A stretch of 64,000 bases of DNA. It comes from Allacma fusca (lineage: Eukaryota; Arthropoda; Collembola; Symphypleona; Sminthuridae). Both the position numbers and the translations under genes were made by a program. The notes beneath the pieces were generated by a model, which was not told the origin of the DNA, made no database searches, and saw only the letters and a list, made by a program, of their open reading frames with translations. The stretch lies in assembly GCA_947179485.1 (NCBI GenBank), contig OX359247.1:57819131-57883130 (forward strand), given 5' to 3'. This document shows, one piece after another, positions 17,501-64,000 of the stretch. Numbering within the stretch: the stretch's first letter is position 1; each line of letters starts with the position of its first letter.

Positions 17501-20500
17501 AATGTAGAATGACCAAAACTTGACCCAAGTTAAAATGTAGCATGACCCAAACTTGACCCAGGCCGAAGTGTAGCATGACTGGAACTAGACAGGCTCGATT
17601 TGATGACGACCCATACTTGAACCAGATTCAATTGTATTGTGACCCAAACTTAACGCAAAATAAACTGTACCGTGACCAAATTTTGGCCAATATTTGACCC
17701 AATATTGCAGAAACTGGTGACCCGAATATGACATAAAACTAAACAGTATTTACCAATATGTTAACCTGGACATAAAAAATCCACATCCGTAACATGAAAT
17801 TAAATCCAAGTGTGAAACTAGACTTGACCCTGAGTTGACCCGAATGAGCCCGTGTATTACCAGGACGTGACCGTAGTCGTGATCTCTTTTGTTCTCGCTG
17901 GCTGACTGGAAGCTCCATGTCTAGCGTGTAGTTTTAAAGCTGGAAAGATCCTGGAGGCAACCCCGGGCTTAAGCTTGCGAGTTGCTTAGAAAAAAGCCAC
18001 ACTCTCGGGCTAATACATGATTTTTATGGAATTAAGAAAACTTTCTCCCATTTTTTCCCCATCGCCATCGTAGTCACTGGCCATGGCCAGAGTGTCACGT
18101 TAACTTGTGGTTTTATTATCGTCCGCAACCAATTCATTCAAATTCATTTCCTCTCTCCCGTCTTTTATTTGTGGCTCATAGGAAAGCTCCCTGACCGACT
18201 TTTCTTGAAATTAGAAAAATTATTGGAATCACCAGTCTCTCAATATAATGCTTTCCCTCCCGTAATAATACATACGTAATCCCCTGATTTTCCTCCCAAC
18301 TTTTTCCCATCATTAATTTCCTTTGGACTTTTACTCTCATACCCTTTTCCTGTCAATAAGTCACTGGATATTATTTCCCAAAAACTTATCCCTCCCGCTC
18401 CGAATTTCTCACCACTTTTCCCACCAAATATTTTTCTGGGCTAATGGCCCCAGTTATTAAGGGCAGCCAAAATTCCCAACCGAAATGAGCATATTATGCA
18501 ATTCAGCAAATACACGACTTCCTCACAAAATTTTCCACTGTAAAATATTCTCCTTCAAAAATTGCTTCCCCCAAAATGAAACCCAAAAAATCTACATTTG
18601 TATCCCAACATTCCCACAAAGTTTAAAAAATTAACTAAAAATCCAGCCCTCAAATTTGAATGTCAAAATATTCATCTGAAATTTAAAATAACTCGGGCGG
18701 TTAATGTTTTGGGCTCAAAAAATATATTTTCCCCGCTTATACAATTGTTTTCAAAGAATAAATTTGTTAAAAACAATTTTAAAAGAAAAAGGTACTATTT
18801 CTCATGTAAAGAAGCAGGAATTTTCAAAACACTCAAATTTACCAAAATGTATTCAGTTTCTGAATTTAAACCAAATCCTAAATTTAAAGCATAAATTGTG
18901 TGAGGAGCGCAGAAAAGGGGTGCTGAAATTTTTTTCAAAAATATTGAGTGTAAAATTCTTAAATAAAATGATCATTAAATCCTCGCATTCTAATTATTAT
19001 TTGAGGGCGAAAAAATGCGCAAAAAAACTAAAACCATCTCCTACAAGCAAAATCTAAATTTCCAGAAAAATTGCCCCTAAAATTTTAGCCAATTGAACAA
19101 AAATTAGGAATTTTCATGCGGGAAATTACACTCACAATTTTTCCTCAAGTGTAATACAATTTTCCCTGAAATAAAATATGCACTATTTCCAAGGATTCTA
19201 TTTTTGCCATAATTTTTTTCGATTCTAATTTGGAACAATGAAACGACAGTTGTCTAATTGAAATGGAAGGGCAGAGTTATAAAAAAAATTGAGGGAGTTA
19301 TTTTAGAAAGAAAGAAAAAAAGGCTCTTCTCTTTTCTCATTTTCTGTTCCGTACATATCTATATGTAGCACTGGAACATTGAGGAATAGAAAAAATGCGG
19401 AATTGCGGCATGTTTCCCATTTGGTAATGTAAGATGACGGCATGTTTGAGTTGCTTGACTTTGGCTCCGCGCCCGGATCCCCTCTTTCCCGACAGTCCCC
19501 TCCCTTTATAACAGCCCCTCCAGAATCTTATCCCTCCTGCTTCCTACATAGGACAGGAAATGCCCTTAAATTAGCATGCATTATAATAGGGAGCCGTCCA
19601 ATGGGTTCCCCCTATGACAAACGTGCCCTCTCCCAATGCGGACCGCAGTAGCGAGACTGTACTGTAGAACGGTGTAAACTGAGACTCCTGCTAAGTGAGT
19701 AATCCCTGGGATGTAAACCGGTGAGAGATTAATCTTTTTTAATTGACACCTTGTCAGCAGCCAGGAATCTATCATGCTCTGCATCATATCCCTTCTAATG
19801 AATGCTCAAACACCTGCCTATGTAAAATCTGAGGAGTCTCCTTAGAACGCACTACTTTAAAATCCCAGTCTTGCTAAGACCAACGCAGGGGTAATGCTAA
19901 ATGTGCTTACACAATGTGCTGGAGAATCCCTCCATAGGATTTTTTTTCGTACAGGGAAAAACCCCCATTTAGCCAAGATTCCCTTGTAAGGAGGTTCTAC
20001 TCCTTTGGAGCCAAGTCCAGGCCTTTGTCACTCTGCCAACCCAATAATGCTAATTCTCAATTCTGGAACAGTATCTTTTTCCGAAGCCTTCAGCCCTGAT
20101 TTATGGCCATGTTATTATCGACACTAGAGCAAATATTATAATGAAAGGGAATGTAATCACAGTCCAGTCTCGCTATAACGGCAGCTCTGAATCACTCAAA
20201 ATTTTAATTTTTAGTATAGCTATTAATATGTAAAATTACCAACAGCACCATTGCAATAACACCTATGGCACTTCACCGGGATATTGTAAAAAATTATTTA
20301 AACGGCGTCGAAATTATAATTGGCGCAATTTTAACCAGGTTAATTAAAAATTAGTTTTATTTATTTTATTATTTATTCCTGCATTTAAAATCTACTCTTT
20401 CTCAAGAAGCTTTCGTAGCGAGAGTCCACAGTATGTATGTTTTCCCATAGTATGACTCTGCCATTCAAAGTGAAATCCAAAGATAAGAAATCATACAAAA

Positions 20501-29500: not shown

Positions 29501-30968
29501 GGCCAAAATGGAATTCCATTCCAAGTGTCCGAGTCAAGAGCCAACCACAAGTATGTCCCAGTCCCAGGAACTCATTACCATTTCAGTCCACACGTCTCCC
29601 TTCCGTGTCTCCATCATTTTATTTATAAAAGGGTCCCAAAATATATTCCTCGCCCCCTAGCCCATTTAAACCCATTTACAAAACAAAATCCAAGAGCCTA
29701 AAATTTTTACCACATTTTTTCTCCTCTTTACGAAATTTGCCCAATTTTTGTGTCATTTTTGTCACAATGGTAAAAAATGCAGGAAACATTTCTACCAGAT
29801 TTTGTCCTCTAAATTTACAAAATTTGTTCAGTTTTTACCCCAATGTCACAATGATAAAAAATGCAGGAAAAATTTCTACCAGATTTTGTCCTCTAACTTT
29901 ACAAAATTTGTTCAATTTTTACCCCAATGTCACAATGGTCAAAAATGCAGGAAAAATTTGCTTAAATTCTTAAAAAAAATCCTTAATTATGATGAATTTT
30001 GGGTGAGACTTTTAAGGGCAAATTTTAAAGACAAGACTGTTGGACAAATTTCAGGTTTTTTATCAATAAATTTTTAAAATTCCCCTTTTGCAGAAATCTT
30101 TTTTAAACTTTTGGAGATTTTTAGAACTGCCGGACATTTGGAAATAAAATGTTTGATTTTTTTTGCCTATTCGAATTTCCTGTTCTGGGCCAAATATGGG
30201 GAGGGAGAGGACTCTTGCGGACCCTTTACATGTGGGATTATCAACACCCTGGGATGTGCTATGTTATTATTGTTTGTTTGCAGTATACTCATGTCACGGT
30301 CATTGGGAAGAGAATGGTTTGGGGTTTTTAATTGCGACTCCACAGAGTCGCTCATCCACGGCTGCCCATCGCTACTGCTTCGTGTACACTGAGTCGGCCG
30401 AGGGAAGTCTCCGTGTTTACAGTAGTAGTGAGTCCTGCCGAAGGAATATTAATGCGGCCACTGAGAGCACTTGGGCTTTCAACCTCACATCTGATGGTAA
30501 CTTCTATTTCCAAATAACATTTCCCTAACGCTTGCTCCGGAGTCTCCAAATTTTAATTATACAGATAATGCATTTTCCTCCCGTTTAGTCAACGCTAAAA
30601 TATTAAACTCGCCCTTAAAAAAAATTTTTTAAGGGGAATTGTAAATAATGAATTGACCCTTAATGATGAATTAAAATTTTTTTTCAGGTCAATGTGCCGA
30701 AGCCGTGACTGCTGGAGGGGCCAGTGGCATAAAATCCTGTGATACTCCTGTTCATAATGTAATTTATGTAATTGTCGTCCTACTCATCTCACTGTTGTCC
30801 AATACGCTAGTCAGCATCATCTTTTTCCCGCCCTCCAGCAATTATTATAATCTGACCTGGGAACCTTCCGCCAAGACCCCTGAAAAACCCAAAATTCTCC
30901 CTCCCACGACTCAAGCCAATTTCAAAACTTTCAAGGACTTGACTTGGCTCACTTTGCCAAGGCTGTGA
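11568..30968 (+). CDS. Secreted/membrane cysteine-rich DUF7042-7045-type protein (5' exon not found)
   Basis: Nine exons read in matching phase: 11568-11709, 26633-26724, 27133-27247, 27378-27520, 28049-28300, 28581-28878, 29213-29550, 30284-30496 and 30688-30968. They encode 623 residues up to a TGA. The first visible exon starts inside a codon, so the signal-peptide exon lies upstream or outside the window. Motifs in order are KWKGKWFQSGIQSP, CYRCLVINDRHENVLQYKE, APFTFTYNRGYGECKNP, LLLRYQACPDV, ELQCIAQWRDGSQFYLVGK and YRCFVYEK. From memory these match the arthropod extracellular family annotated with DUF7042/7043/7044/7045. Many cysteines suggest an extracellular, disulfide-bonded protein. 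A C-terminal hydrophobic segment (VIYVIVVLLISLLSNTLVSI) with about 45 residues after it fits a single membrane span. Function is unknown. The second visible intron boundary encloses 14.9 kb full of repeats. Confidence 0.85.
12001..12159. mobile_element. Short pogo/Tigger-like MITE (putative)
   Basis: The left end is GGACCCTCGTTATAAAGACC. The right end, on the minus strand, is TACAGTCCACCCTCGCTTTT. The two are imperfect inverted repeats about 159 bp apart, with a non-coding interior. Confidence 0.45.
12876..13043. repeat. 23-bp tandem repeat with palindromic AACGTT core
   Basis: Degenerating copies of ATTCGTTTCGTAAAAACGTT plus AAC run from about 12876. The first three are near-identical and the later ones decay (CGTTAAAATTCG forms). 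Each unit can fold through its CGTTT/AAACG arms. Confidence 0.75.
13578..14272. mobile_element. Complete non-autonomous hAT element (695 bp)
   Basis: The terminal inverted repeats are TAGTGCATCGCATGGGTTCA at the left and its near-exact complement ending TGCGATGCACTA at the right. They are flanked by a perfect 8-bp duplication CACCCGGT at 13570-13577 and 14273-14280. An 8-bp target duplication is characteristic of the hAT superfamily. Inside the ends are many subterminal copies of GGTTCAGGT/GGTACAGGT in direct orientation at both ends, and no transposase. Similar GGTTCRGGT arrays flank the 4.5-kb hAT element at 52966-57507, although the terminal repeats differ. Confidence 0.9.
17190..17585. 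repeat. 33-bp tandem minisatellite (higher-order 66 bp)
   Basis: The unit is about 33 bp with core TTGACCCAAGTTAAAATGTA. Two alternating variants (AGTTTGACCGGAAC and GCATGACCTAAAC tails) form a 66-bp higher-order period. The minus strand shows a spurious 97-codon open frame with an 11-residue repeat. Degenerate TGACCC-rich sequence extends from about 16.66 to 17.87 kb. Confidence 0.9.
20159..20433. mobile_element. Pogo/Tigger-like MITE (putative, clearest example)
   Basis: The left end is ACAGTCCAGTCTCGCTATAA. The right end, read on the minus strand, is TACTGTGGACTCTCGCTACG. The inverted ends lie about 275 bp apart around an AT-rich non-coding interior. I class it as pogo/Tigger-like from the terminal motif only. 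Confidence 0.55.
22121..22213. mobile_element. Very short pogo/Tigger-like MITE (putative)
   Basis: The left end is TACAGGCTTTTCTCGTTATA, followed by ACGAACC. The right end, on the minus strand, is TAGAGTCACACCTCCTTATT. The element is about 93 bp with no coding capacity. Confidence 0.4.
23185..23470. repeat. 22-bp tandem minisatellite
   Basis: The main unit is TTGACCTCTATTGTGTTTAA plus AC, repeated about eight times. It passes into a derived 22-bp unit TTTTTAACTCAAATGTGTTT plus AA. Degenerate TTGACC-rich sequence continues to about 24.0 kb. Confidence 0.9.
29761..29960. repeat. 84-bp tandem duplication in an intron (2.4 copies)
   Basis: GTCACAATGGTAAAAAATGC recurs at 29761, 29845 and 29929, an exact 84-bp spacing. 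The whole unit repeats with a few substitutions. It lies in the intron 29551-30283 of the DUF704x gene. The two open frames across it are by-products of a period divisible by three. Confidence 0.9.
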
Positions 30969-36512: not shown

Positions 36513-38200
36513 TTAGGCGCCGTTTGAGACTTTGGGTGGTATTGGACCTGTGTGTACCATGTGATTTTTTATTTCTTCTGTCAAATCATTTTGTAGAAGA
36601 TTAACCCAACTTCTGATCAAATCAGTGTAACAAGTGTTAAAGAAGGAAAAAAAGGATTTAATGGAAAAATTCATGAGTGATAAAATATATAAAAAAATAC
36701 CACCAGCAAAAACAGCTATTTTAATCAAATCTCAGTCCCATCAAAATGGAAATCAGAAGCTACTGCAGGAATTGAGCTCTCTGTCAAGGACAAATGTTAT
36801 CTCAAATAATTTTATAAGCAGTGTAATTACAATAATAGTAGTAAAGTCACATTTAATTTAAACATAAACAAAAGCTAAGCTTTTCCATTATGGGCTTTTG
36901 TTCCCATACAGAAAGGACATGCACTTAAATTTTACCTTATCTCATCTTACAAACACACATAATTGCTCTGTGGTGTACTATTATCTGCAGTACGCATCCG
37001 TGATCTCGTCCTGGGGTTAAGAATTCCTACATAAATTTTTAAGACCGCTATCATATTTCTTGTCTTATAATTGGGATAAAATATCTTACACAAAATTCCT
37101 CAAGATGGAAAAATTCTGCAAGGTTTTTCAGATGCAAGAATAATTAAACGTCGGGACGTACATATGAAGAAGCAAAATTAGAATTTCCTGGTCAATTTTG
37201 TACCAAAGTCAAATTTAATCCTTAAAAATTTTAGGGGTCAAAATTAAACCCGTAAAATATTTTGAGGTGCAAAATTTAATTCCTGAAAAATGTATAAGAA
37301 GCAAAAATTGAAATATTGTTAAAAGATTGTTAAGAAGCAGCTCTGAGTATAGTTGACACGGCAATCGTGCCTTGAATGGTGGAATTTCAATTAGAGTGAA
37401 GCCTCCATATAAGGGCTGCTCTAAATTTTGCTCTTACAATGTATTTGCTTAAAGGAGAAAAAATTAACATTGGGTTGAATGGGAAGGTGTTTAATTAATT
37501 TTGGGTCTGGAAAGAAAATGTTTAAAGTATTGGATCCCTTGTAGCGATGACGGACTGTAAATGAATAGCTGGAAAGAAAAGCCAGACTTGTAATTATTAT
37601 TATTCCTGATAATATCCTACAAAATCAAAACAATGGAAAAAAGGAAGGATTAAATTCCCTCACCTCTCAGGAAAGTTTGCGTGCAATTTTATCTGCGCAT
37701 TAAACAATGTCTTGAGACTGAGGGAGTGAGAAACAAAAGGGCATCAGTATCCTTAATTTTGGATGATTCATTATTCCACGCCGTATGGAATTACACATAT
37801 GTGAATACATATATTATGTAAGAGAATAAAAATTGGAACAAAAACAATTCCCAAGCTTCAGGGCTTCTCAGCCTCTAAATTTCCAAAGTACTTGGAAAGA
37901 AATGTTAAGGTAAAAAAATAAAAAGTTGGAGTTTGAGGAGTTATACCTCTTCATTGAATGATCCCACAGCGAAAGTAAAATAATATAAAAAGTTGTTGCA
38001 GTCAACACGGACGAAGCAGTACAGATGGTGGATTCGAGTTAGACAAGTCAACAAGAGTCCTGTTAAACTTCCAATTGTTGTTTTCGTGATTCGTATTTGT
38101 TTTTGAAGAGGGGCGTGATCTGCATCTTGGATTTCTACAAGATATTTATCATACTCAAATAAATAATACAGACGTAAGGACAACAAACCACTTTGAGTTC
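36513..38200 (-). CDS. Possible minus-strand gene fragments (weak)
   Basis: Two minus-strand open blocks look more protein-like than their surroundings. One spans 37947 to about 38200 and ends at a plausible donor (GAAGAG then GTATAAC). It includes LVEIQDADHAPLQKQIRITK. The other ends at a TAA at 36513 and reads SWVNLLQNDLTEEIKNHMVH near its end, possibly after an acceptor TTTGATCAG. I recognise no family and found no connecting exon, so this may be chance. If real, it would be transcribed divergently from the secreted-protein gene that starts at 38399. Confidence 0.2.
37392..37559. mobile_element. Short pogo/Tigger-like MITE (putative)
   Basis: The left end is TAGAGTGAAGCCTCCATATA. The right end, on the minus strand, is TACAGTCCGTCATCGCTACA. 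It is the only member of this group that I saw downstream of 27 kb. Confidence 0.45.
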
Positions 38201-44238: not shown

Positions 44239-47200
44239 ATGTTACGGTTCCTAACTTTCTTAATATTTTTAAGTTTTTACGCACTGGATCAACATGCTAG
44301 TGCAAAATATTACAGCAAAGGGAAGACAAAATGTGAGTGTTGTAGTGGACATCAAAATAGCATTTTCTTTCCTTCAAATTTGAAACCCTGGGCATTATGC
44401 TCTAATTGTTTTGACTTTTTCAATTAATTTTGAAGCATACTTTGGGATTTTGAATTATTTCTACGTAAATATTCAAGCAATTTGGCTTTCAAAGTTGTTA
44501 CAATATTTTCTAAATAAAGTTTTCACAAATTGGTATTGTGTCGGAAAATTTTCGAGCTTGTGTATTTTCGTCAATTTGTAACGTACTGGGTTTTTTAATG
44601 TTTATAACTTAAGTTTTATTTTTTTCCAAATTAATTTTGTACTTACGTTTGTGGATTATTTTGGATTTTTGGGCTTTTAGTACCATTTTATGTGCTGGTG
44701 AAAATCCCGAGCGGGACGTGCGATTCAGAGTATCTACGGACGTCCGGAGTTTGTGTGGCAAGGTGAGATTTAATTTGTCATACTTTTATATAGCCAGACA
44801 ACCGCTATGGGCGTTTTGTAATTTAAAATAAAATACATAACTTCCCTTGTTATTGTACAGCAACCGAGCCTGCACGCGCTTAAATGGAACTGAGTCCGGA
44901 ACCTGTGCTATGGGATATGGAATTTGCTGTTTGGGTATGTTCAAAAAATCGTAAACTCTTCCGTATTCGATTGTAAAATATTTAGAGCCAATTTACAAAT
45001 TGTTTTTATTGTATTTAGTGCAGACCACATATTGTTCTAAATTTTATACACTGTTCCTGTAAGGAACACCCTGATGGTTTTTGATACGAGGACAAAATTA
45101 CTTAATTAATGCCTATCCCATATGTACATAATTTGTTATCCAGTATGCGGATACGGTTCATATCACTATTAGCAATCATTGTATGGAAATTTGACCGTGA
45201 AGATTGTATTGTACTTAGCAAGAGGTACCCGTTGCTCTACGACTTGACTTTGTAATATTTTACAACAATGGTGCTAAGAATTCCTAAGTCTGGGTATGCA
45301 CCTTAATATTCAAAAGTTAATTCCAGGTGTGCTCGTTTCGGGGAAACAATTCAAGTTACTTTTTTACCGTACTCGCTTGATCGCCTCACATAAATTTAGC
45401 CACCTAGCTTTAAAATTTGCTAAACGATTTTCACCCAAATTATTCCACTATATTTAATGAAACCATTTTATGACATGTAGAATTCTTTTCATGATCCTGG
45501 CTCACGTTTGTAAGTTTCTTCGTGGGGATTAAGTCCACATTTAAATCTCAGGCAGACAGAAATGCTAATGGTAATTTGCCAGTCATAGGTCTAATGTCGT
45601 GCATAGTCCATTTACAACACCACTCTTACACAAAGCCAAAAATACAAGTCCAAAATTTTACAGCATGCAATTCAAATATTAAATTCCTGTCCTACAACCT
45701 AACAAATAATTATGACAGTGACTCTCAACTGCGCTACTAGTCCAGAAGTAGTCAAAGCCAATGGGACACACCTGGTCAACCCGTCCAATTTAAAGAACCA
45801 AACGAGCTGCGAATTTCAGTTGCCGAGACCCCCCGGAGTGTGTCAAGTTCGTTTGGACTTCAACAATTTCAACACGTCCCTTGGGGATCAGCCCTTTGTG
45901 GGGGATTGTCAAACGGACACCTTTAACATTGTGGGGGCTGACAATACGAAATATTTAGGCCCTCTCTGCGGGAACTTAACGGGGCAACATGGTACAAATT
46001 ATTTGTGCTTATAAAAAACAAACCTTGATTTTCATATTCCTGTATTACCATTTTATCGAATATTTAATACGTGACGTCGTGTGAATAATATTTTGGGATA
46101 TTTGATCCCTAGTTTATCTGGACTATGGAAATAGCAACACAATAAGTCTCTTCAATTACATTTCTCAGGCCATGGGACAAACCTGGGACATTAAAGTCAC
46201 TTACATTAAGTGTGACTCTCCGGACAAAGGTGTACTTTTGTCGTAGTTTCTTAGGATTAGCATTTTACTGTCATAGGAGTTGTTGCCATTGTATGCTCTA
46301 CTCCCTTGTTTAACATAACGCACAATTGTTTTGTGTATGATTCATAAAGTGTGAATTGTTTGCAGCTCCTCCGGGATGTTTACAGTATTACACAGATCCT
46401 TCAGGCACTGTCAAGTCCTTTAACTTCAATGGGATGCAGCAGCTGAATAATGAGGACTACACAGTTTGCATCAAATCTCAGCCCGGAATGACTAAGATCA
46501 CTGTGAGTGAGATATATGACTATGTTTATAAAAGCACCTTAACAAGAGGAACCAAATTTACAGCTTATAATAGCAAATGTGTCAAATATAGTATATGTTA
46601 AATATTTTCAAATCCTTTGCATCTTTCGAGACAGTACTTTTATAATCGTGTCTAATTATACCGTATACATATATATATTTATGTATCCTCCTATACAGTA
46701 GTTCCTTTATTAAGTTGAGGCCGACTGTAAAATGGATGATTCATTTTGTTAGTGGAACTCTTGCGGAGGACTAAATGACTTTTTCATAACTGGAACCGGA
46801 GCCATTGCTCCACCACCAGGAACCGACTTTCCACCCATTACAAATCCCGTCAGTGGAAATGACTGCATGTATGACTGGGTCATGATTTTGGGAGCGAACA
46901 AATATTGCGGAAACACTTTCGACGGTCCAGTGACATGTAAGTAAATTGTTGTACTTAAATTGAAACAAGTTTGTTATACTGCAGCATGTGAAGGAATAGT
47001 TTTACAAAAATTCGATTTCAAGTTTATCAAAATCATAATTTAAAATTCTTCCTTGGATAAAAATGAACATTTCAATTTTCGACATAACTCAAAGTAGGGA
47101 TTTTGAATAAGTTATATACATTTGTTATCCTTTTAATTGGGAAGAAAATATTTTCTGAAAAATTGACGATTTAAAGAATGGTTTCAAAATCTGTACGATT

Positions 47201-49853: not shown

Positions 49854-52800
49854 ATGTGTTGGCAGTGCGTATTTAAGAAAGCTCCTGGAGATACAGATGT
49901 CCCACTTACAGTTCCCACCACTAAGACACCAGCCAAAACTCAAAACCAGCCCCGTGAAATAGTTTCCGAAAATATTTCAGAAAAGGTCGGCTCCCAACGT
50001 ACGAAGATCTCAACACCTGGACTTGATTCTTCTGCAGCAACAATTGTACTCGGTGCTGCTACAACGCTTAATGAACAGGACGCTACGACAACGATCCCAC
50101 CTGCGGTAGCTGCCATAACTATTGGAACTGGTGCAGCTGCAGGAATCATTGCCAACAATTACCAGAACCTTGGAACTGTCTACAGTACAGTAATTGTTGA
50201 ATCCTCATCAAGCACAAAAGGGTCCTCATTCCCGCTCTACAAATTTCCACCAACAAATGACAATTTTTATGGGCGCGAGGATACACTCCAGGAAATTGAG
50301 GAAGCATTGAGGTCATGCCAATATGAAGAAAATATTTATAAGCGAGTGATTGCAATAACTGGATTAGGTGGAATGGGAAAGAGTGAAATGGTGACCGTGC
50401 TGTTGAGCAGATTAAAATCCCAATACGACTACATTTACTGGTTTAATGCAGAATCTGAAGCAAGTTTGAATCGTGATTTTGAGGGATTAGCGGCGGATCT
50501 TAACATGGAATTTGTATCAGTTTCTGATCTTTTGAACATATACCGCCACCTGGCCAAGCATGACAAGAATGGTATATTTATATTTGACGATGCACCAGCA
50601 TTGAAGTCCGACGGTGACAATTTCGGAATCGAAGAATACCTCCAACCCAATGCTCAGTGCGGAAAGCCATTATTTATCGTGACCTCTCGGAATCCCTGGG
50701 GCGACGTGAGAACAAAAATCAAGTGCATTCCATTAAACCCACTCTCTGACAAGGACTCCCGAGCTTGTATTCTTAAATATCTGGGAATCGAAGATCAAAT
50801 ACTCCCCGAATGCTTAAAGTTGGCTGTGTCATCCTTGGTTGCATTAGTTGAAGGGCATCCATTGGGTATGTCCCTACTCGGTATCAAAATGGCTGAGAAG
50901 GGCGAACAAATTTGTTTCGGTGGTATCGAGTCTAGAGTAAATAGCTACATCGAACTCTTGCAAGATCAGCGTATCGAGGACTTGTCAGAGCAAATGAAAT
51001 ATGAGGCCAGATTGCAAATCATTTTCAATGAAACCTTCAAAAATTTGGAAGCTTCAGACGATGTAAAAATTGTAATCGAACTATTAAATATTTCGGCGCT
51101 CTTATGCCAAGGCCATATCTCTGTTGGCTTTATCAATGGTATAATTTGCGGGAAAAATTACGTACCGGAAGGTGTTTTCAATGCACGTTTTGGAATTGCC
51201 GACGCTGATACCCGTGTAAAAGTTGGATTGAAAATATTACAGGCGAACTCTTTAGTACGATTGGAAACTCACAAATATCGGGATTTTTACAAAGGGAACG
51301 TACAGGTTCACGAATACGATATGATCGGGATCCACGGGCTTCTTCAGCAATGTGCAAGAAATAGGATTGTCACCGATGTCAATTTGCCCCAAGTGCTCAA
51401 AAAACTGTTTCAATTTTTTGAACTAAATATTTTCATTCCAAATTTGAAGGACCTTTTTATAACGGAGTATACGTTTGGTATTCATATTTTTTATATTTGG
51501 AAATTTCTGGAAGCAAACAGTTATGTTAAAATTGAAACATCTTCGCTACTTATGTTTGCTTACCGACTGAACGACTTTTACGGAGATAGACCCAATCTGT
51601 TTAAAAAGCTGCAGGACTTTCTGAGAACTAGGGGATTAACTAGGGATGAAGCACTTCTTCTGCGTTTGGTACAGTTGCGTATTTGTCAAGAATCATTGTG
51701 GGAGTTCAGATATGACCGTTTTCAGGTGAATGAAATTCGACGGTCAATCCTGGCTCTTTCTCATGAACATTCCAGCAAATATTGGGTTATTGTGCTCTGT
51801 GCTGAGTTATTCGTGAAAATCCCAGAATACTTGGATAAGGTAAACAGGGAATAAATTTACAGAATAATTTCATATTTTTAATAGCTAACTCTTACAGCGG
51901 CAAAAGTAAATGCTGTCGCATTGGGTTTGTATATTTTTGTTCGTATTGCAATAATAACGAAGCGGTTTTTACAGGTTTTAAACCTACACCGGGTCGCATT
52001 TAATGCGTCACACCATCCATTTACGCAATTCCAATTTTATAACAGGTAATTTACCCGAATCCTTGTAAATGCAGAATTTATATGTGTAACATTGCAGACT
52101 ATTCGATTTGAGGGTCTTCCTGATTGGCTGGTCAAAAATTATTTATGCTGCCGACAGAATATGCGCGGTTATTCTGGCATCCTTAGAATTGTATTCCAAT
52201 ATTGGGACACCCCTGACCGCGACACTACACTTGACCAGAAATTCATTTGGAAAGTTTTTGCTTGTACTGCCGAGCAGGAACGGGGGAAATTCTGGGAGGA
52301 TATGGTATAGCAAACCAATCTTCAACGATTGATATTATTTTATTAACATCATTAAGTACTCAAAATGTAAAAAAAACTATTATGTACACTATGTGAGAGC
52401 ATCGATATTTGAGACCGATTGTATGGAATGGTACTTCAAAAGGTGAAAAATTACAACGCTGTTTAATTTTATATTGGAAAGTATGCAATAATTATGGGGT
52501 TTTATAGACTAGCATCTTATTAAAAGCCCTGCATAGCGTTAAAGAAATTATTAATTCTTAATTCCTTTCAAAATCCCAAAGTGCTTTGCATTTTTGGCAA
52601 CACATATTTCTGTCATAATCAATACGTACAAATTCCCTACAAAATTGATCTTTTGAGTATCCCGTCAAAATTTAACTAAGATATAATGTTGTCAATTTTT
52701 ATTGTTTTGCAAATATTTTAATTTACAATGAGCTCTTAACTAACCACACGTAGTAGGGTGGCCAGTATGGTTTGTATGAAATAATAAACTTAAAAAAAAA

Positions 52801-55800
52801 AATCTAAGTTTAGATTTTTAACTTCACTCACTAAGCTTCTGTGTGAAGTTTCGCTTTTGGAAAACGCCAATATGACCACTTAAACTTTAAAACCCATATT
52901 GTTAGACTAAATGTCCAAAATTGTTGTTTCATTATTTCATTTTCGCATTGTTTTCTAACCTTAACCAGAGCTGCTTGCAGGTATCAGGTAGTACCTGAAA
53001 AATACCCGCCGGGTCGGGTTCGGGTCAAGTTCGGGTCAGCTACAAAAAAAAGTACCTGAGGTTCGGGTCAAGTGCGGGTACATCAAGGATCCGCACCTGA
53101 AAGTACAGGTCGGGTTACGACCAAGTTCGGGTTTAAAAAATATACCTGAGATCAATGTCAGGTACAAGTTCGGTTCGACGAATTCAAAATACCTGAACCC
53201 GAACTTGCAATTTCAGGTATGCAAGTTTTTTTCCCGCAATAATTTAACTGTAAGTTCACGTGAATGAAACTCAAGCTCAACGCAACGTTAATGTAGCTTC
53301 ACATGGCCGAAGAGCACGTGGGAGCTAGTGATTAGAACTTCCATATCAATTAAATTTACAAACAACCAAACTTTTCTAATTAATTTCAGGATATAGTATT
53401 AACGCTATAGCAGACATCATCACATTTGGATCTTTTTCGAGCATAATAAATTCACAGTAGAATCATTATTTTACTTTGGTAGTGCTTATTTGTTCTCCAA
53501 AAAGTAGTGCTATAATGAGTGAAGGTGGAGCTTTGGAAATTGGCGAAGACTTAGATGAAAGTACCGATGACCCCGTCATACCTCACAATTCACAAAAGAA
53601 GTCAATAGTTCACCAGCATTTTACATTCAACGAAGAAAGCAACAAGTACATCTGTAAAAATTGCAAGTAAGTCTTTAAGTAAATTATTAAATATTATTAT
53701 AAACATTTTTACGTATATATTATTTGCTTATTAATTGCTTTTGGTATGTTAAAATACTAAATGGTAGAATTTTTACATCTCGACTAATGTTACAGGAAAT
53801 CCTTCAAAAGGGAACCGAGATCCAGTACTGGAAATTTGATGAAGCATTTAAAAACAAAACATGCTAATAAATTAAATGTGACCAACAATGATCATCTTGC
53901 TTTGAAGGGGCCGCTACCAGTGGCATTTAGCAAGGCATTTATATTAAAATATTGGCATTCTCTTGAGATAGGATATTCTAATCGTAGTAGCTAATTAGAT
54001 AACAAGGAGGACTGATAGGACTAATTATTATTTTTTACAGACATCATGCGATAAAGATTTATTGCGACTCCTCGGGGAGTTCATAATTATGACCAATCAG
54101 CCCTTCAGTATTGTTGAAGAGGAATCATTCAGAGCATTGATGTTATTGGGTAAACAATACTCGCTGCATATCCCCCAACGAGAAACCATTAAGGGAAAAA
54201 TTCAATCTATGTATCTTGAAAAGAAAGAAGGAATTAAAGCAAAATTACAGGTAAATTATTTCAGTTATATACTCAGTCGCAAGACCAATGAAAATAGTAT
54301 AAATTTTATTCCTGAATTAATAATAATTAATAAATTTGCTGCACTTGATATCAGGCTCATTCAGGAAAAATTTCCTTAGTCGTGGACTGCTGGTCTTCGA
54401 GGTCTGGAAAGTCATTTCATGGGATACTAGCGACCTTCATCGATTCAGATTGGAATTTCCAGCAATTAATTCTCGATTTTGATATTTTAAGAGGATCGCA
54501 CAAAGGGAAAAATCTAGCTAAATCTGTCCATGATGTTCTATGCGAATATGATATAACTAGTAGATTACTTGCAATTACTAGCGATAATGCTTCAAACATG
54601 AACACTATGTTTGCAGAGCTTGGAAAACTGCTTCAACCGGTAAGTACAAGAATTTTGCTTAATTATGCGAAGACTAAAATGTCTATTTAATGTTTGTAAT
54701 TAATGTATTTTTTACTATGAATTCACCACAAGGAGGTCAATCTGAATTGCGAGGACCAAAGGGTGCGATGCTTGGCGCACATAATAAACTTAGCATGTCA
54801 AGCCGCCCTCAAAATTTTAAAAGAAACTGACAAAAAACAAGTAACCTCCGAAACCCTTTCATCATTGGACACGGAAGAAGAGTCAGATGATCTGGATTCT
54901 GAGGAAGAGCCAACTCGTTCTAATGGAGCAAGAAATGTGTCCATATATGATAGGGTAATTAATCTTGTTTGTACACTTAAGAACTTAAAAGTCCCATGTT
55001 GACGTACTTACCTCTCGTGAAATACATGGCATAAGCGACATTAAAGCATACCTTTATCATGGCATGCATTTAATGCCTCGTGATTCCTATTAAACCTATT
55101 CTGTTTCCCCTTGCAATGAAAAATATGGGCCACTCAAAATATTTACCATAATTAATTAGTTATAATCCAGATTGGTTTCTAGCACGTTATAGTTAAATTA
55201 TAATATGTGGATTTATGCAATTGAAAATGTTTTTAGCTAAAAAGATCCATTGGGAAAATTCGTAAGTCTAGCATTCTGAGGGATTCAATGGACCATTTCT
55301 GTGAAACTTTTAAAATTCCAAAACTCCAGCTTTTACAGGACATGAAAGTCAGGTGGAACTCAACGCTCAAAATGTTACAACGTTGCCTTACTTTGAGAAA
55401 AGTAAGTTACAAATAATCATCATTTTGAGTTTATAAAATTGTTTACTAAATCTAGACAAACCATTTTTGCAGGCCCTCGATGCCACTATGATGAGCGAGT
55501 TGACGCTTCGTTCCCTTGTTTTGTCGGAATGGGATTGGAAAGTTGTCGCAGATATGGTTGAATTACTAACTGTGAGTTTCCTATTTTGCTCTCTTAAAAA
55601 AGTAACCCATTTTAAGGAAGCGTCAGTCAGTGTTGAAATAGTATTGTCCGTGGGTCCGTGGGCCGGTCTGTTCCGCCGTTTTCTTCCAATTTTGTTCAAA
55701 TGATTTGTGAATACTACTTTTGCAGTTGAGTTCGTTACTGGTTGAAATCGGTAGGCGTGTTCGTACGGAAAAATATAAAAATAATAAAATCTGTATTTTT

Positions 55801-58355
55801 TCCCGAACTGTTCCACTGATATTAATGAAGTTTAATTTACGCATACCAGCGCTACTACTTTTATTCTTTCCAAATATTTAGATTGTTTCGTTTTTATTTT
55901 TAAAAAGAGCTCGAATCAATACTATTAATGTGGTAAGGAGAGATGGCAGTGGCTTACGCCGCCCTACGCAACAGGCGTAAATAATCGCGAAGCTTTTAAT
56001 TTTAAATTTATTAAGACAAGTTTATAATTTTAGCCTTTTAGCAAGATTACTGAAAGGATGTCCAAGCAATATGAGCCTCTGATGTCGTTGACAGCTGCAA
56101 GTTATATTGATTTATATAACCATTTAGAATCATTCAACGTAACGTTTATATATTAAAATTTTAATAACCCATTACTTACAATATAAATGTTTTGTTTTTT
56201 ACCATTCAAATGTCAAATTCGTTAATGATTGCAGGGAAAGACCGAGTTTCATCCCAACATTCTTGCTGCAGCAAAACTAGCTTGCGAAAAGTTGAATGAG
56301 TATTACCCTAAATCAGATGGTTTCGTTTACTTGGCAGGAATTGGTATTGGTCCATTTTTTACTGAATTGAAAAAAATATTTGATTTTCGTTACAGCAGGC
56401 TTCAAATTTTATTTAGTTTTAGATCCTCGCTGCAAGTTGGAGTGGCACCGATCCGTTGGATTCAAGTCGCTGGTACAAGGTTATAAAACGTAATCCTGTA
56501 CTTTATTGTTCAGTTGCATGTCTTGTTTGCTTGTTCATATACTATTTTTATTATTTTAGTACTATTACAAAGTATTGGCAAAAGTTCTACAAGCCAGTTC
56601 AAGAAATGGGCGCCGAAGAACCGGCAACAGCGGACATCTTTGAACGGCAAATGAAGCGAGCAAAGTATGATTGCAAAGATGAGCTGGAGAAATATTTATC
56701 CTTACCCCCAATAAAATCGTCGGATTTACCCAATGGAGTCTTAACTTGGTGGAAGGTTTCCGATATCTTCTTTAATGTTACTAGTTTTTAGAATTTGGGC
56801 TGAATTTATTATACCTGGGTGTTAATAAAGTGTTTCTATACTCTATTACAGGAGCATTCGTCTATGTATCCCAATCTCTGTAAAATGGCACGGGACTTCT
56901 TAGGTGTATCAGCAACTGGAGTGCCCATCGAGTGCTTATTTTGTATGGGAACGGATCTTTTGACTCCGAAACGACTGTCGATGCTAGCGGAAACAATTCG
57001 CGTATGCTTGTGCCTGAAGGCTTGGTTGCAGTTCGAAAAACGTGATGACTATCTGCGGTCTCGTGCTGAAGCTATCGCTCAGAGAATGCTTGGGGAAGCT
57101 TAAACTTGCTTTTTGCATTATTTTTGTACTGCTTGTGACTTAGAATTAATAAAAATTTACGCATTCATAACTTATCGTATTTTGTGAGTGAGTAGTATTT
57201 ACTTGGATCAAGTATTAGGATAGAACGTATCTTTATAAGTTAGCTCTGAAAAATACGTGAAAGTCAGGTTCGGGTTCAGGTGCGGGTTCAAGTTCGGGTC
57301 GGGTTGGTTTTGGGATCCGCACATCAGGTATTTTTTCAGGTGCGGGTAGCCAAGCAATACCTGATTCAAAAATACCTGACAGGTGCGGATATTACCTCGG
57401 CTTCTGAGTGACAAGTTCGGGTCGACGAAAAAAATTAACCTGATATTTCAGGTGCGGGTCGGGTTCAGGTGCGGATCCTAATTTTTTGCTACCTGAAAGC
57501 AGCTCTGACCTTAACCATCGTTGTGAATAAAAACGATCAGGTGGTCGTATTAGGATGAAACACTGTGTATTACATCCCTTTGACATGTACCCTGGAAATA
57601 TATACTTAAAATTGACACGTCAATACTTAAGTTTTCTAAATATACTTTCAGTGGATGATCTTACGCCATCTCCATGGGAATCAAAGGAAGGAATTCTTGC
57701 AACATTTTTTCGCTGTCACAGAAATTAATCTTTTTAAGCAGACACTTCAATTTCTGGATGAACTTCTGCTCCAGAATTTTTTATTGAACTGGTGTTGCTA
57801 TTTCTGTGGTAAAGGGCTTTATCAAAAACGCATTTAAAAATAGTATTAGTTGATTTAAGCTAATCTAAGTGATTTAATGTTTCAAAAGAATGCAGCACCC
57901 AACTTGTAGAATTTCCAGACTTGAAGAAATTGCTGTTCGATAATACAGATTTCATTGATACACTTCTCAGCATCACATATCTCAGCCTGGAATTTCTTTC
58001 CTCGGTCTACACCAGCAACGTAATTTCAGAAGTGGCGCAAGCTGATATGGTATTTATATGTTGTATGCATTCAAGTTACGATATCCCAAATATGATTAGG
58101 TTTTTAGTTTATGTGTCTTTGAAAAGGAAATATTGCCCAAACAGGATAGTATAATTTTTCCAATTCTGGAATTTTGTTTTTGATTAGGAAACCAGGGGTA
58201 TTTTTTGTATTTTTGAACTATTGTTCACCTTATTTCTACATGATGTGAACTTATACAAATCTGTCGGGGACAAATTGGATTCTCAGGTGGAAGATTGGCT
58301 AGCTAAACGTGGCCATAGTCCGAAGATACCAAGGAGAATGAATCTCACGTCGTAA
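49854..58355 (+). CDS. STAND/NB-ARC NTPase, NLR-like receptor, with a hAT element in an intron
   Basis: The model joins 49854-51839, 51885-51974, 52098-52304, 57652-57808, 57910-58049 and 58188-58355, all in phase, for 915 residues. The first block has a hydrophobic low-complexity N-terminus (about 82-116). Then comes NB-ARC: FYGRED at 138, Walker A GLGGMGKS at 170-177, Walker B IFIFDD at 241-246, TSRN at 277-280 and GHPLG at 334-338. The following helices (to about 660) and the small 3' exons look like a winged-helix plus helical-repeat sensor. Such proteins are ATP-driven switches that oligomerise on signal, as in Apaf-1 and NLRs; an immune or cell-death role is inference. The start is uncertain because a strong acceptor lies just upstream. 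An alternative ending uses 51885-52045 and 52098-52332 (stop TGA), but it strands the three downstream exons and gives a less protein-like frame. Confidence 0.75.
52985..53225. repeat. Left subterminal repeat array of the hAT element
   Basis: About 240 bp of clustered GGTTCGGGT, TACCTGA and CAGGTNCGGGT motifs lie just inside the left end. hAT transposases of other families bind short subterminal repeats, so this is a likely transposase-binding region (inference). Confidence 0.7.
53515..57103 (+). CDS. hAT transposase, BED zinc-finger type, 12 exons
   Basis: Twelve exons join in phase with no stop: 53515-53666, 53796-53919, 54041-54250, 54355-54639, 54733-54954, 55237-55401, 55473-55571, 56034-56138, 56235-56343, 56423-56489, 56560-56755 and 56852-57103 (661 residues). 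Exons 1-2 form a BED finger (YICKNC ... HLKTKH). Next are QPFSIVEEESF, the first catalytic Asp in SLVVDCWSS, the second in ITSDNASN, the VRCLAHIINLACQA signature, KVRWNST, LSEWDW, DPRCKLEWH and the C-terminal hAT dimerisation region with the catalytic Glu in GVPIECLFCMG. In most hATs that motif is ER-F-S, so CLFC is unusual. It would cut and paste DNA in the nucleus. So many introns in an active-looking hAT gene is unusual. Exon 2's donor (GTGGCA) is the least certain junction. Confidence 0.88.
57148..57153 (+). promoter_or_regulatory. Polyadenylation signal AATAAA of the hAT transposase gene
   Basis: AATAAA lies 45 bases after the transposase TAA stop and before the right subterminal repeats, so transcripts could end inside the element without truncating the host NB-ARC transcript. 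Confidence 0.6.
57237..57500. repeat. Right subterminal repeat array of the hAT element
   Basis: About 260 bp rich in GGTTCGGGT, CAGGTGCGGGT and TACCTGA motifs lie just inside the right end and mirror the left array. Confidence 0.7.
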
Positions 58356-59836
58356 TATTTTATACAAAGTGAATTTTATTTTCGAGCTACCAGCAATATA
58401 TATTAACGAGTTCTCTGTATAATCTAGGACAAAAACATCCCTCAGGAAATTCTCACAAGTGCAATACTGCTCGGACAGAACGAAAAAATGGATTGAAGTG
58501 ATTTTGTCAAATTGAAAGAGCTTCTGAAATTGTTTATAGTTTTATAAATTATCATAATAAATTTCATGCTGGTTCGAGTGAAGACAATTGATTCAGTGTC
58601 GGTCCTTTCTTTACATAATCATACATACCTATTTCGATACTCTTTTAAATATCTTTTATTCGTGATTTGATTTATTAAAATTAACGTAATGCTTCCAAAA
58701 GCACATTCAGTACTTGATTTCTGGTTGTCGTAAATTGTAATGCTATTGTGTGCAATTTATTATCATTGATCTGGGTACATTTTTCGATAACAGATGTTAG
58801 CACGTGATGCAAGGCAAGCCATTTTTAAGGGTTACAACTAACTTGAACTTTTGTGAGCTTGATCCTTGGTTGTAATTACTATGACGATCTGTACGTATCT
58901 AAATGTACACAGTAAGCACGCATGCTTTTGATAGGTAAACCATGGGAGACAAAAAACAAGCTCAGTAGCTTTTAAAATACGAGAAATTAATACTGGAATT
59001 TTATGAAGCTATCCAGATTTAACAGGAAATGTTGTATTTTATCAGAAATAAAATTCCTGAAAGCTGCGAAAAAGGCAGCTAATGATATCCGTTTCACACT
59101 GTTCATAGTCCAGCGTTAAATCATAATGTTTTATTTTCAAATATTTCGCTTCTGTTTGTTGAACCCAATTTTTTAGGGCGGCTTGAGCGCCCCTAAAAGT
59201 CCATAGGTACGTAGGTCTGTTTGTCCAACACTTTTACTTCGAAATTACTCAACAGATTTTGTCAAAATTGTTGTTAACATTGTTTCGGCTAAAAGCTCGG
59301 CTGTGCTATGAGTTCTTTATTGTTAGAAATCGGGCTTAAAAAAATAAAAACAAATGAAATCTGTATTGTCGGGGCACGAACTACTTGCAGTCTGCCAATT
59401 AGGGACAGGCAGGCTGTAGTCCGCCTGCTGTGTACGTAGCAAAAAAGCTTCATATATGTACATACGTGCTGTGTACTACGGGTGGCTTACCCCTTATATC
59501 TGCTTGAAATGGATTCAGAAAAATTGAAACATAACTATCGAGGGTAACGAATATTTTATTCGTTACTATTTAGCTATAACTGTTGTGTTGGCAATCCAGC
59601 CTCAGTCAGCAGTTCATCCATGTATTTCTATATTTATGAGTAAATAACTCAATATTATTGTGACCAATCAGTTTATTCGCAATTATAATTCTATAATGTC
59701 GTCTGACTCTGTCCGTCACTCCTTTACTGACATTCAACAAATAAACACATTCTTGGTTCTGGAGTCAAACTTGATTTTCCACCACTATTCTGAGTGACCA
59801 ACTATTCATTGAGCCATTAAAATAGTTCATTAAACT
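58356..59836. other. 3' flank of the NB-ARC gene and spacer to its pseudogene
   Basis: It starts with the 3' untranslated region of the NB-ARC gene and an AATAAA at 58556-58561. At about 59171-59198 a hairpin-forming sequence (TTTTTAGGGCG ... CGCCCCTAAAAG) is followed by a tract of the kind seen in dispersed repeats (TACGTAGGTCTGTTTGTCCA). No gene was recognised. Confidence 0.5.
58556..58561 (+). promoter_or_regulatory. Likely polyadenylation signal of the NB-ARC gene
   Basis: This is the first AATAAA after the modelled TAA stop at 58355, about 200 bases downstream. It supports 58188-58355 as the terminal exon. Confidence 0.5.
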
Positions 59837-61440
59837 GTAACCGTGCTGTTGAGCAGGTTAAAATCGCAATACGACTACATTTACTGGTTTAATGCAGAAA
59901 CTCAAGCAAGTTTGAATCGTGATTTTGAGGGATTAGCGGTGGATCTGAACATGGAATTCGGATCAGTTTCCCATCTTTCCAAGATTTATCGCTACCTTTC
60001 CAAGCATGCCAAGAATGGAATATTCATATTTGACGATGCACAAGCACTAAAGATTGACGGTGACAAATTTGGAATCGAAAAATACCTCCAGCCCAAAGTT
60101 CAGTGTCAAAACCCGTTGTTTATCGTGACCTCTCGGAATCCCTGGGGCGACGTGAGAACGAGAATCAAGTGCATTCCATTAAACCCACTTTCTGACAAGC
60201 ACTCCCGAGTAGGGGTGAGTATAACGAGACAACGAGACGAGAATCTCGTTTATCTCGCTCTTTATTTATCAACGAGACAGTACGAGACATCTCGCTTTAT
60301 TTAACGAGAATATCATTTGCAATTAAATCTTGTTGAAGCCCATATCAAACTGAAAAATGGGGTGTTTTTTATACCATGTTGTCAATTAAAACATTTTGCA
60401 GTTCTTGGTGCTCGCTTTTATTGCGTTAGGTTTTCATTAATTCTTTTCAAGGCTTCCATGTTTTCACATTTTATGGTCCAAACCCAAAAATAAATATTTA
60501 GCGCCTTGGGATTGTTCCGAATTGTGAAATTAAATAAATTTGTATGTTCTTTCACCAGAATTTGTGCAGTCTACAAATAAATTGCATATATTTCAACAGA
60601 AAAACCATGTTTTTGCCCTGTCTCGTTTGTCTCGTGCGTTGCTTACTCTCGCTACTCTCGTTCTTAAAATATCTCGTTCTCGTATTTTTTTCAGAAACGA
60701 GAACGAGACAAACGAGAATTTTAAAACCAACGAGATACTCACCCCTACTCCCGAGCTTGCATTATTAAATATCTGGGAATCGAAGATCAAGAACTCCCAG
60801 AACGTTTGAAGTTCACTGTGTCATCCTTGGTCTCATTAGTTGAAGGGCATCCATTGGGTATGTCTTTACTGGGTATTAAAACGGCTGAGAAGGGTGACAG
60901 AATTCATTTCGATGTTATCCAGTCCAGAGTAAATAGCTACATCGAACTCTTGCAAAATCAGTGTATCGAGGACTTGTCAGAGCAGATGAAGTATGAGGCA
61001 AGATTGCAAATCATTTTCAATGAAACCTTCAAAAATTTGGAAGCTTCAGACGATGTAAAATTTGCAATAGAATTATTAAACATTGTGACCCTCTTATCTC
61101 ATTACGATATCTCTGTTGGTTTTATCAATGGTATATTTTGCGGAAAAATTACGTGCCGGAAGGTATTTTCAACACACGTTTTGGAATTGCCGACGCTGAT
61201 ACCCGTGTAAAAGTAGGCTTGAAAATATTACAGGCGAACTCTTTAGTACGATTGGAGACCCAAAAATATCGGGATATTTACAAAGACTACGAACAGGTTC
61301 ACGAGTACGACATGATCAGAATGCATGGGCTTCTTCAGCAATGTGCAAGAAATAGGATCGTTTCAGTTTTTCGAACTAAATATTTTAATTCCAAATACTG
61401 ATGATTTTTTCTTAACCTGTTATACGTTTGGTACTCATGT
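59837..61440 (+). pseudogene. 5'-truncated, disrupted copy of the NB-ARC gene
   Basis: From GTAACCGTGCTGTTGAGCAG onward the sequence follows the parent gene (parent positions about 50391-51480) almost codon by codon. The junction falls just after the parent's Walker A, so the P-loop is absent. It keeps YDYIYWFNAE, GIFIFDDA, FIVTSRNPWGD and EGHPLGMSLLGIK. It is interrupted by a 538-bp hAT MITE at 60210-60747, carries a one-base deletion near 61140 (GCGGAAAAATT against GCGGGAAAAATT in the parent), and lacks about 40 bases near 61361. Similarity fades after about 61440. It is a tandem partial duplication of the functional gene about 1.5 kb upstream, now non-functional. Confidence 0.9.
60210..60747. 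mobile_element. Non-autonomous hAT element (538 bp) inside the NB-ARC pseudogene
   Basis: The ends are TAGGGGTGAGTAT and its complement ATACTCACCCCTA. The 8-bp target duplication CTCCCGAG is perfect (60202-60209 and 60748-60755), and the parent NB-ARC gene shows the uninterrupted site with one copy. Near both ends are many ACGAGAC/GTCTCGT motifs in both orientations. There is no transposase. The TAGGGG-type ends and 8-bp duplication place it in hAT. Confidence 0.92.
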
Positions 61441-63614
61441 TCTTAACCCTATAGTTCCTGTAGTTTTCATGTTGCATGGGCTCCCAACGTATGGACAAAC
61501 TGTCCCATGTTATTATTTCATTGGGGACCATAAGCATATTTCAACCAATGCAATCACAGTGATGTTTCTATAAACCTTGAATACTAGTGTATCTATGCCT
61601 CCATATTCCCGCCAATCAGTTTGTATGTATGTGTGTTTGACCGTTAGTCTTTATGCCCACCTGTCTCTATGGCAGCTAGACCTTATGCCCGTTTGTATGT
61701 ATGTCTGTTGCCTAGTTTATTTGTATGGCCTTTTGTCTGTGTGTTATTTTATTTGTATGCCAGCTTGTATGTATTCCAGTTTGTCTGTATGTCCGTATGT
61801 CGATTTGCTTGTATGTCCGTATGTCCGTATGTCTGTACGTCCGTATGTCCGTATGTCTGTATATCAGTTTGTGTGTATAGCCTTTCGTCTGTACATACTG
61901 GTAATGAAAATTCACGAAGTCATTATCTGATTGCAATCCAAGCATTACCCATTACTGAGCTTGACTTGAAATTATGGTGGACTACAAACCTGACGATAAA
62001 GGACAGACACATTTTGGGTCCCTCAATGTTGCCCAACTACTTTGGCCCATTTTGTCAACGATCCCGGAACGCAGGATCGGGAACGTTTTTCATACCCGCC
62101 TTAAGATTCTTAAGTCCCGATAATCGAACGAATAACCCAGAAAAATGATATTCACTCTAATCTTATGCTATAAAATTAGCTGCAATCAAAATGTTTCGAA
62201 ATATTTTTGTGAGACGGTTCAAGAAACACGGTTTCTCCCAATCATAGCTCCTAAAGATACATTTCCCCGAAATTAGTGTCAGTCCTCATATATCAGGCTC
62301 ACAATTCCCTACGTGGGAATTCAAGAATACCTACTGAAAGCCAATGAAATTTCCTACAAGCGAGCGTGAAATAGTATTCCAAACAAAATTTTAAAATACA
62401 AATTATAAAATAAAAAATATATAAGTGTAAACAATGCTTAAAGTAATAAGCACAGAGTAAAAATTCAAAAACAAAATGTAAGTTTTCCATAAAATATAAC
62501 GAATTTACTCAACTACCATCACCCGTGTCTCTAAAATTTTTTAACAACAAGTATGGAACACCGTTTAGTAAATTCTAGTATATGCCTAATTAATAACTAC
62601 AATAGTTGTAGCGTCTCGGTGAATATTTATATTTGCATCGTGTCAAAATCCGATCAAAATGAGAAGAGGTGTCCAAACGAAAGATGAGATAATATGTAAA
62701 GGGTCATTAAAAAATACAGTAAGGTGCTTTATAATGAATATATGAAATATATTCCACAGTTACATTATATCTATAGAAACTCGAAGAAATTAAGCGAATT
62801 AGAATATTATCAGTGTATAATAGTTCTTATTTCATTACGCTGTAAAGCCGCATTTCGTCTACGCATTGTTTACAATAATTTGCAAAATATACCATTACGT
62901 TATTTGTTGCTTTTTTATTATGCTATTTATAGTGATAGTGCAAGTATGCGTCATTGTTACAACCAAGCCACGTATTAAAAACAATGTATATTCTCATTCT
63001 TTTTGCGGCACAGCGTATCTGTATACATGTGCTGGATTAATTGAAGTATACCCAACATGGTTTATGAAATTGAATTCCACTCAATTCAATTCAAAATGTT
63101 GCACTGAACTGAATTAGATAGGTTTTTGCTGAATTGAATCGAAAATCTAGTTTCAGTTTAGCATATTATTTGAACTGATTTGAACGATTGAATGTCCGCC
63201 ATTTTGGGCAACTTGTCCTCGTACTATTCCCTGGCATTTTGGGCATTTTCATTCGAGGGTAAATTTGACAAATTGCGCAAAATCATCAATTAAAAAAGAA
63301 ACATTTATACGGTTTGGAGTTAGGTTAGAAAATCTCTTGGCCATTTTGGAGGCAGGTTTAGAAAATGACTTGGGTATTTTCATTGGCATGGTTTTTGACT
63401 ATGTCGCAACATTATATATTGATAACAGTTGTGTGTTAATTTTTATTACTTGAATTCTAATTCATGGCCAGTACATCTTAATTAATTACTGTTACAACTG
63501 TTTCAAGAAACTTCCTTCTTTTACTACACACAAGGATTACACTTTCGTAATAAATAGTCATCGATATTTTAAGAGCAAAAGGTCATGCTTAATACAGAAC
63601 TTGCACTTGAACTG
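61441..63614. other. Region after the pseudogene, no gene recognised
   Basis: It contains a degenerate 8-bp GTATGTCC-type repeat (61615-61885) that creates long but meaningless open frames, then AT-rich sequence. An AATTGAATTC-type low-complexity patch lies at 63068-63190. No exon with supporting splice phase was seen. Confidence 0.5.
61770..61870. repeat. 8-bp GTATGTCC minisatellite
   Basis: Copies of TATGTCCG and TATGTCTG follow each other, with degenerate copies extending upstream to about 61615. The repeat gives cysteine/valine-rich open frames on both strands that should not be read as proteins. Confidence 0.8.
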
Positions 63615-64000
63615 TACGTAAACTTTACTCGAATATTTTTGAACCTTAGCTGAACTTAAACTTGAGCCTAAACGTGATCCCACATTTGAACCCAAAATTA
63701 AAGCCACTTTTGAACCTAAACCCAAACTTCAACCTAAACGTTAATCTAAATTTGAACCTAAACTTGAAGCTAAACTTGAAGCTAAATTTGAACCTAAACT
63801 TGAACCTAAACTTGAACCTAAACTTGAACCTAAACTTGAACCTAAACTTGAACCTAAACTTGAACCTAAACTTGAACCTAAATTTGAAAATAAACTTGAA
63901 CCTAAACTTGAACCTAAATTTGAACCTAAACTTGAACCTAAACTTGAACCTAAATTTGAACCTAAATTTGAACCTATACTTGAACCTAAACGTGAACCTA
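63615..64000. repeat. 12-bp minisatellite CTTGAACCTAAA, runs off the window
   Basis: Degenerate copies begin near 63615 and become near-perfect 12-bp units from about 63755 to the end of the window, so the array length is unknown. A/T and AAC/AAT variants occur. The TTGAACC core resembles the TTGACC core of the arrays near 3, 17 and 23 kb. Confidence 0.95.

Follow-up and report, generated by a model that had tools for sequence, protein, structure and literature searches.

The window analysed here, a stretch of 64,000 bp with a G+C content of 36.7%, carries on its forward strand a gene whose product, judged by its predicted sequence, is an NB-ARC-type STAND protein. Taking the evidence together, we consider it probable that the gene encodes an NB-ARC STAND ATPase of about 880 residues and that a young hAT transposon lies in the intron following its third exon (Table 1).

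Table 1. Features of the NB-ARC gene, the hAT element and the neighbouring copy (positions in the window)
Feature	Position	Strand	Description
Exon 1: N-terminal region, NB-ARC/winged helix (residues ~132-505), start of C-terminal region	49854-51839	+	662 codons
Exon 2 of the first-pass annotation, optional in frame	51885-51974	+	doubtful
Exon 3	52098-52304	+	stop-free, in phase; in every best whole-tail chain of both chain searches
Intron 3	52305-57651	+	5347 bp; 797 bp minus the element and one target repeat
hAT transposon	52966-57507	+	4542 bp; 11-bp inverted ends CAGAGCTGCTT
hAT transposase	53515-57103	+	~12 exons, ~640-650 residues, no internal stop
Exon 4 of the first-pass annotation	57652-57808	+	stop-free, in phase; donor at 93.3rd percentile; chain search favoured 57739-57808
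Exon 5, refined start (first-pass annotation: 57910)	57919-58049	+	from chain search and splice-site scores
Exon 6 with stop TAA, as in the first-pass annotation	58188-58355	+	acceptor at 99.3rd percentile
Dead partial copy of exon 1	59837-61444	+	corresponds to 50391-51491; truncated 5' and 3'; gaps of 1 and 38 bp
Second element, within the dead copy	60210-60747		538 bp; 13-bp inverted ends TAGGGGTGAGTAT; 8-bp duplication CTCCCGAG

The frame of exon 1 is open from position 49848, with its first ATG at 49854, and an acceptor-like tract ends immediately 5' of 49848, so that an upstream exon may exist. The exon closes with the donor AAG/gtaaac after 51839, which ranks at the 97.8th percentile among the plus-strand GT sites of the window. 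Its product contains a module of NB-ARC plus winged helix with, in the usual NB-ARC/STAND nomenclature, Walker A (GLGGMGKS), Walker B (FIFDD), TSR, GHPLG and a histidine at the MHD position. All of these STAND ATPase motifs (Walker A and B, TSR-type sensor, GLPL-like motif and winged helix with the MHD-position histidine) could be aligned with bacterial relatives; GHPLG stands in place of GLPLA and IHG in place of MHD, and histidine 494 (in IHGLLQQCAR) was identical in all six rows of an alignment with five bacterial relatives. The best family match was the prokaryotic FxsT (NCBIfam NF040586, FxSxx_TPR; E 3.5e-21, residues 132-486), which at 75.4 bits covered model positions 2-320 of 830 and fell far below the model cutoff of 300 bits. 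Together with the motif alignment, this match bears out the NB-ARC identity proposed in the first-pass annotation. That annotation had also suggested a profile search against NB-ARC, TPR and Apaf-1 families: Pfam NB-ARC matched exon 1 with 22.7 bits (E 6.5e-5), just below the gathering score of 23.5 bits, Pfam recognised neither TPR nor WD40 in exon 1 or the C-terminal part, and no CARD was found in exon 1 at E values up to 1 or in residues 1-130 at E values up to 10, an upstream exon being possible. Pfam AAA_16 matched exon 1 at E 1.4e-5, below its curated cutoff. A PDB sequence search with exon 1 alone retrieved no NB-ARC chain at E 1, the one match being CooC (E 0.73), and PADLOC returned 0 families.

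Relatives of the domain were found among prokaryotes. By tblastn, 12 plasmid records among 72,556 matched with identities of 24-34%, and five of these plasmid relatives were fetched and aligned as the basis of a bacteria-only profile. This five-segment profile scored 79.8 bits against the exon 1 protein (local hmmsearch, filters off), and the same five segments, realigned and compared with PDB chains, gave 70.3 for AfsR, 49.1 for Roq1 and 43.5 for APAF1 among the 60 of 212 matches listed; both profiles have 337 positions but are separate builds, so that minor gaps between these scores carry little meaning. A comparison of profiles gave an alignment of 321 columns, at 99.4% probability, between the NB-ARC of exon 1 combined with two pieces of the neighbouring copy and the five bacterial segments. 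On these scores, the NB-ARC appears closer to the bacterial branch than to Apaf-1, and the domain itself groups with a large known prokaryotic family. APAF1, Dark and CED-4 share the NB-ARC superfamily with the present protein, which in contrast has no recognised CARD or WD40 and scores 79.8 bits where APAF1 scores 43.5; the earlier remark that the protein does not look like Apaf-1 is borne out by these scores. The likeness to FxsT and related prokaryotic NB-ARC/TPR proteins lies in the NB-ARC and winged helix, whereas the present protein is without a recognised TPR, stays far under the FxsT cutoff, has introns and differs in its N-terminal region. AfsR is a transcription regulator. The Streptomyces protein (8k60, 8jke) has an NB-ARC that reaches 70.3 bits on this bacterial profile, whereas Pfam showed no DNA-binding domain in exon 1 or the C-terminal part of the present protein. 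Among the relatives themselves, a Methylomagnum plasmid (L002:1382-5152) carries a TIR-domain gene followed by separate genes for an NB-ARC and a TPR protein, an arrangement that looks like a split NB-ARC/TPR system, and the best 80 relatives listed include Candidatus Aquirickettsiella gammari, an amphipod symbiont or pathogen, at 29% and a Rickettsiales bacterium at 27% identity (L033, L027). Placozoan, Hydra and fungal NB-ARC/NACHT proteins, compared by description only from excerpts of three papers (PMC6321704, PMC7642931, PMC4986451), would share the NB-ARC core and an NLR-like order, whereas the present protein has no recognised repeat or effector domain.

Downstream of exon 1, the first-pass annotation had placed five small exons. 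All five are stop-free in the required frame, and the six exons join into 915 residues with no internal stop, so that the reading frame of the model holds; two of its details do not. Exon 2 is doubtful given its weak donor (59.9th percentile), the rise of the tail coding score from 11.89 to 14.5 when it is skipped with the frame kept, and its absence from every best chain in both chain searches. Exon 5 starts better at 57919 than at 57910, the two in-frame acceptors ranking at the 92.1st and 57.5th percentile. The refined model, without exon 2 and with exon 5 from 57919, has 882 residues and no stop or frameshift, and an AATAAA lies after exon 6 at 58556. If exon 3 were left unspliced, its frame would end at the TAG at 52308-52310; the TGA at 52332, named earlier as the alternative stop, is in another frame.

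To evaluate the tail, a codon model built from exon 1 was applied to each downstream exon, with both strands of five presumed non-coding stretches as background. Given an open frame, the chance of an equal score was 0.12, 0.041 and 0.25 for exons 2, 3 and 4 and 0.18 for exon 6, and exon 5 outscored every open background segment tried. Exons 4 and 6 had negative scores in their own frames, below those of other frames that contain stops. A chain search with the exon-1-only codon model at an intron penalty of -6 selected exon 3 alone, extended to 52310 (52098-52310), a result equalled by 45 of 200 shuffles. In the larger search, which used more training exons, five intron penalties (-6, -4, -3, -2 and -1) and 200 dinucleotide shuffles and left the element out, the whole tail was equalled by 8, 6, 3, 3 and 4 shuffles, respectively, and the part past exon 3 alone by 33, 27, 8, 5 and 6. 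At -6 its best chain went no further than 52310; at -4 it continued across the gap into 58188-58286 plus 58428-58496, and at -3 to -1 its part past the gap consisted of 57739-57808, 57919-58049, 58188-58286 and 58428-58496, the last two segments being an alternative to exon 6. The larger search thus recovered the donors at 57808 and 58049 and the acceptors at 57919 and 58188; of the exon ends proposed earlier, both donors and the acceptor at 58188 are among these, while exon 4 came out shorter and the end of the gene differed. With the element kept in, the chain ran through the transposase region. In the exon-1-only search, and for the part past exon 3 taken alone, the tail does not clearly exceed chance. 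Together, these results make for a moderate case, and the tail beyond the hAT element is probably real as far as its sequence can tell.

The element itself was located exactly. It is flanked by a perfect 8-bp target duplication, ACCTTAAC, at 52958-52965 and 57508-57515, and three stop-free readings of its transposase (642, 641 and 650 residues, among the chains listed) were obtained, the exon borders not being unique. Two domain matches of the 650-residue reading, zf-BED at E 3.5e-7 and Dimer_Tnp_hAT at E 1.5e-15, exceeded the curated cutoffs. With these two domains, its 8-bp duplication and short inverted ends that begin with CAG, the element resembles known hAT transposons, and nothing unusual was seen in it; its transposase is spread over about a dozen exons. 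A comparison with a phage collection, an unlikely place for such an element, gave no match. The exact ends, the perfect duplication and the readable transposase confirm the hAT element that had been reported at this site, and the intron minus the element, estimated at about 800 bp, is indeed of that size. Equally, the gene and the element lie on the same strand, as had been noted, and the element has its own AATAAA at 57148, past the transposase stop at 57103. The insertion looks young and coding-intact, and the element probably sits in an intron of the NB-ARC gene. A further AATAAA is found at 52783, in intron 3 upstream of the element, and with signals both there and inside the element, transcripts may terminate early.

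A dead partial copy of exon 1 lies downstream of the gene. It is truncated, frameshifted, lacks 38 bp and is split by an element of its own, for which the NB-ARC gene provides the empty site; this second element appears non-autonomous, and hAT-like by its target-site length. Two copies of one gene have thus received one independent insertion each, within 12 kb. After removal of the insert and one target repeat, gene and copy were aligned with no insertion, one 1-bp gap and one 38-bp gap, and the compared codons of the copy contained no stop. Differences numbered 40/353, 25/355 and 68/354 at first, second and third codon positions (third positions against the other two, Fisher P 7.7e-6), and dS was 0.32 and dN 0.094, a ratio of 0.29. 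This crowding at third positions indicates that the family has been under protein-level constraint, as an average of both lineages. The copy has no tail, and so it is of no use in confirming that of the gene. Its truncated, frameshifted and transposon-split state is evidence of local duplication and local death of genes in this family.

Three other explanations were weighed against a gene that continues beyond the element. The gene may end 5' of the hAT, with exon 3 read through to the TAG at 52310 (732 residues without exon 2) and polyadenylation at, for example, the AATAAA at 52783, in which case the exons at 57652-58355 would be chance frames or belong to another gene. This end is the one chosen by the exon-1-only chain search and, at penalty -6, by the larger-model search, a poly(A) signal is present, and the coding scores of exons 4 and 6 are weak; yet five consecutive exons are in phase and stop-free, exon 5 lies above all of the open background segments tried, and milder penalties cross the gap and reuse the donors at 57808 and 58049. 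We therefore regard a gene ending before the element as unlikely, though worth keeping in mind. That the locus has lately become a pseudogene, through the hAT insertion or for some other reason, and keeps an intact frame only because it is young, would fit the death of the neighbouring copy, the young look of the insertion and several mediocre splice sites. Against it, neither the 882- nor the 915-residue model contains a stop or frameshift, and the insertion is intronic in the model and has left both splice sites of intron 3 in place, which makes a pseudogene quite improbable.

The prokaryotic likeness of the domain raises the further question whether the gene entered an arthropod horizontally, with a prokaryote or a fungus as its source, and acquired introns later. 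The best family matches are prokaryotic, and an excerpt of the report on a springtail genome mentions hundreds of foreign genes in springtails (PMC5490193), which would count here if the gene is from a springtail. A donor scan with one P-loop pattern, which the query also fits, yielded at least 593 pattern matches and at least 358 relatives, and the best 80 of these were only 22-36% identical in their best segment, so that no close prokaryotic donor was found among the species searched; a scan of IMG/VR gave 4 pattern matches and 0 relatives. NB-ARC genes with TPR repeats occur in other animals as well, according to excerpts of PMC6321704 and PMC7642931. On this evidence transfer is conceivable, and we doubt it.

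Returning to the intact gene of about 880 residues, its working can be sketched by analogy with its family. STAND ATPases use their NB-ARC and winged helix as an ADP/ATP switch, which can open and oligomerise. The present protein would comprise an unclassified N-terminal region, the NB-ARC with winged helix and a C-terminal region without recognised repeat. Residues 1-130 had no Pfam match at E 10, and among four stretches above 1.4 on the hydrophobicity scale used, residues 81-99 were the most hydrophobic (1.67). The C-terminal part had no Pfam match, and LRR, TPR, WD40 and ANK repeats were recognised neither there nor in exon 1. At rest, the protein would be closed and ADP-bound; a signal sensed by the C-terminal part or by a partner would lead to exchange of ADP for ATP, and oligomerisation would then gather the N-terminal regions in one place. 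The motifs for nucleotide binding can be read in the sequence, while switching, ligand and output are presumed from the family, as is a function as receptor. The hAT element, which lies after exon 3 in the orientation of the gene, would most likely be spliced out with its intron.

Elsewhere in the window, plus-strand exons of a DUF7042/DUF7043/DUF7045 gene were found at 27991-30525; these are arthropod families, and 27991-28314 matched DUF7042 above cutoff (E 2.4e-16) while neighbouring exons matched DUF7043 and DUF7045 below cutoff. A weak CUB match at 45703-46014 fell just below cutoff (E 5.4e-4). At 37335-37345 the hAT end AAGCAGCTCTG occurs by itself, its partner not being found in the window; this may be due to chance. 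Self-comparison revealed a tandem block at 17147-17688, whose minus strand is open as a repetitive peptide, and an array with a unit of about 12 bp by eye (cttgaacctaaa) extends from 63598 to 64000, where it runs off the window; it is open in several frames and unlikely to be coding.

NB-ARC genes are numerous in some other lineages. Excerpts of the respective papers give 39 NB-ARC genes in Trichoplax sp. H2, where NLR repeats are always WD40 or TPR (PMC6321704), 106 NB-ARC domains in Hydra viridissima with TPR on 103 of 264 NACHT/NB-ARC proteins (PMC7642931), and a preferential joining of NB-ARC to TPR in fungi (PMC4986451). Passages of two others report NACHT homologues throughout arthropods and crustaceans (PMC5062602) and the loss in insects and nematodes of much ancestral Apaf-1/NB-ARC diversity, leaving their own CED-4/Dark branch (PMC2246300). 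In the open-access literature searched, no titles or abstract openings among those listed described NB-ARC families from springtails or any other arthropod; the main text of the Folsomia genome paper (PMC5490193) has 'NB-ARC', 'NACHT', 'tetratricopeptide' and 'immune' 0 times, and the available text of a collembolan transcriptome paper (PMC4468109) has 'NB-ARC', 'NACHT', 'apaf', 'nucleotide-binding' and 'NLR' 0 times. It is possible, and we offer it as a tentative and rather speculative idea, that the gene belongs to an undescribed, locally duplicating arthropod, perhaps springtail, family of NB-ARC switches distinct from Apaf-1/Dark, with a C-terminal sensor of a new type and an NLR-like birth-and-death repertoire repeatedly hit by transposons. 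As transposon biology, the hAT insertion is nothing out of the ordinary, yet splicing across so young an insert can be tested cleanly here. In an arthropod-type genome, an NB-ARC gene that is constrained, is not Apaf-1 and has a dead sister copy would provide a test case for whether NLR-like intracellular receptors have been kept or regained in some arthropods.
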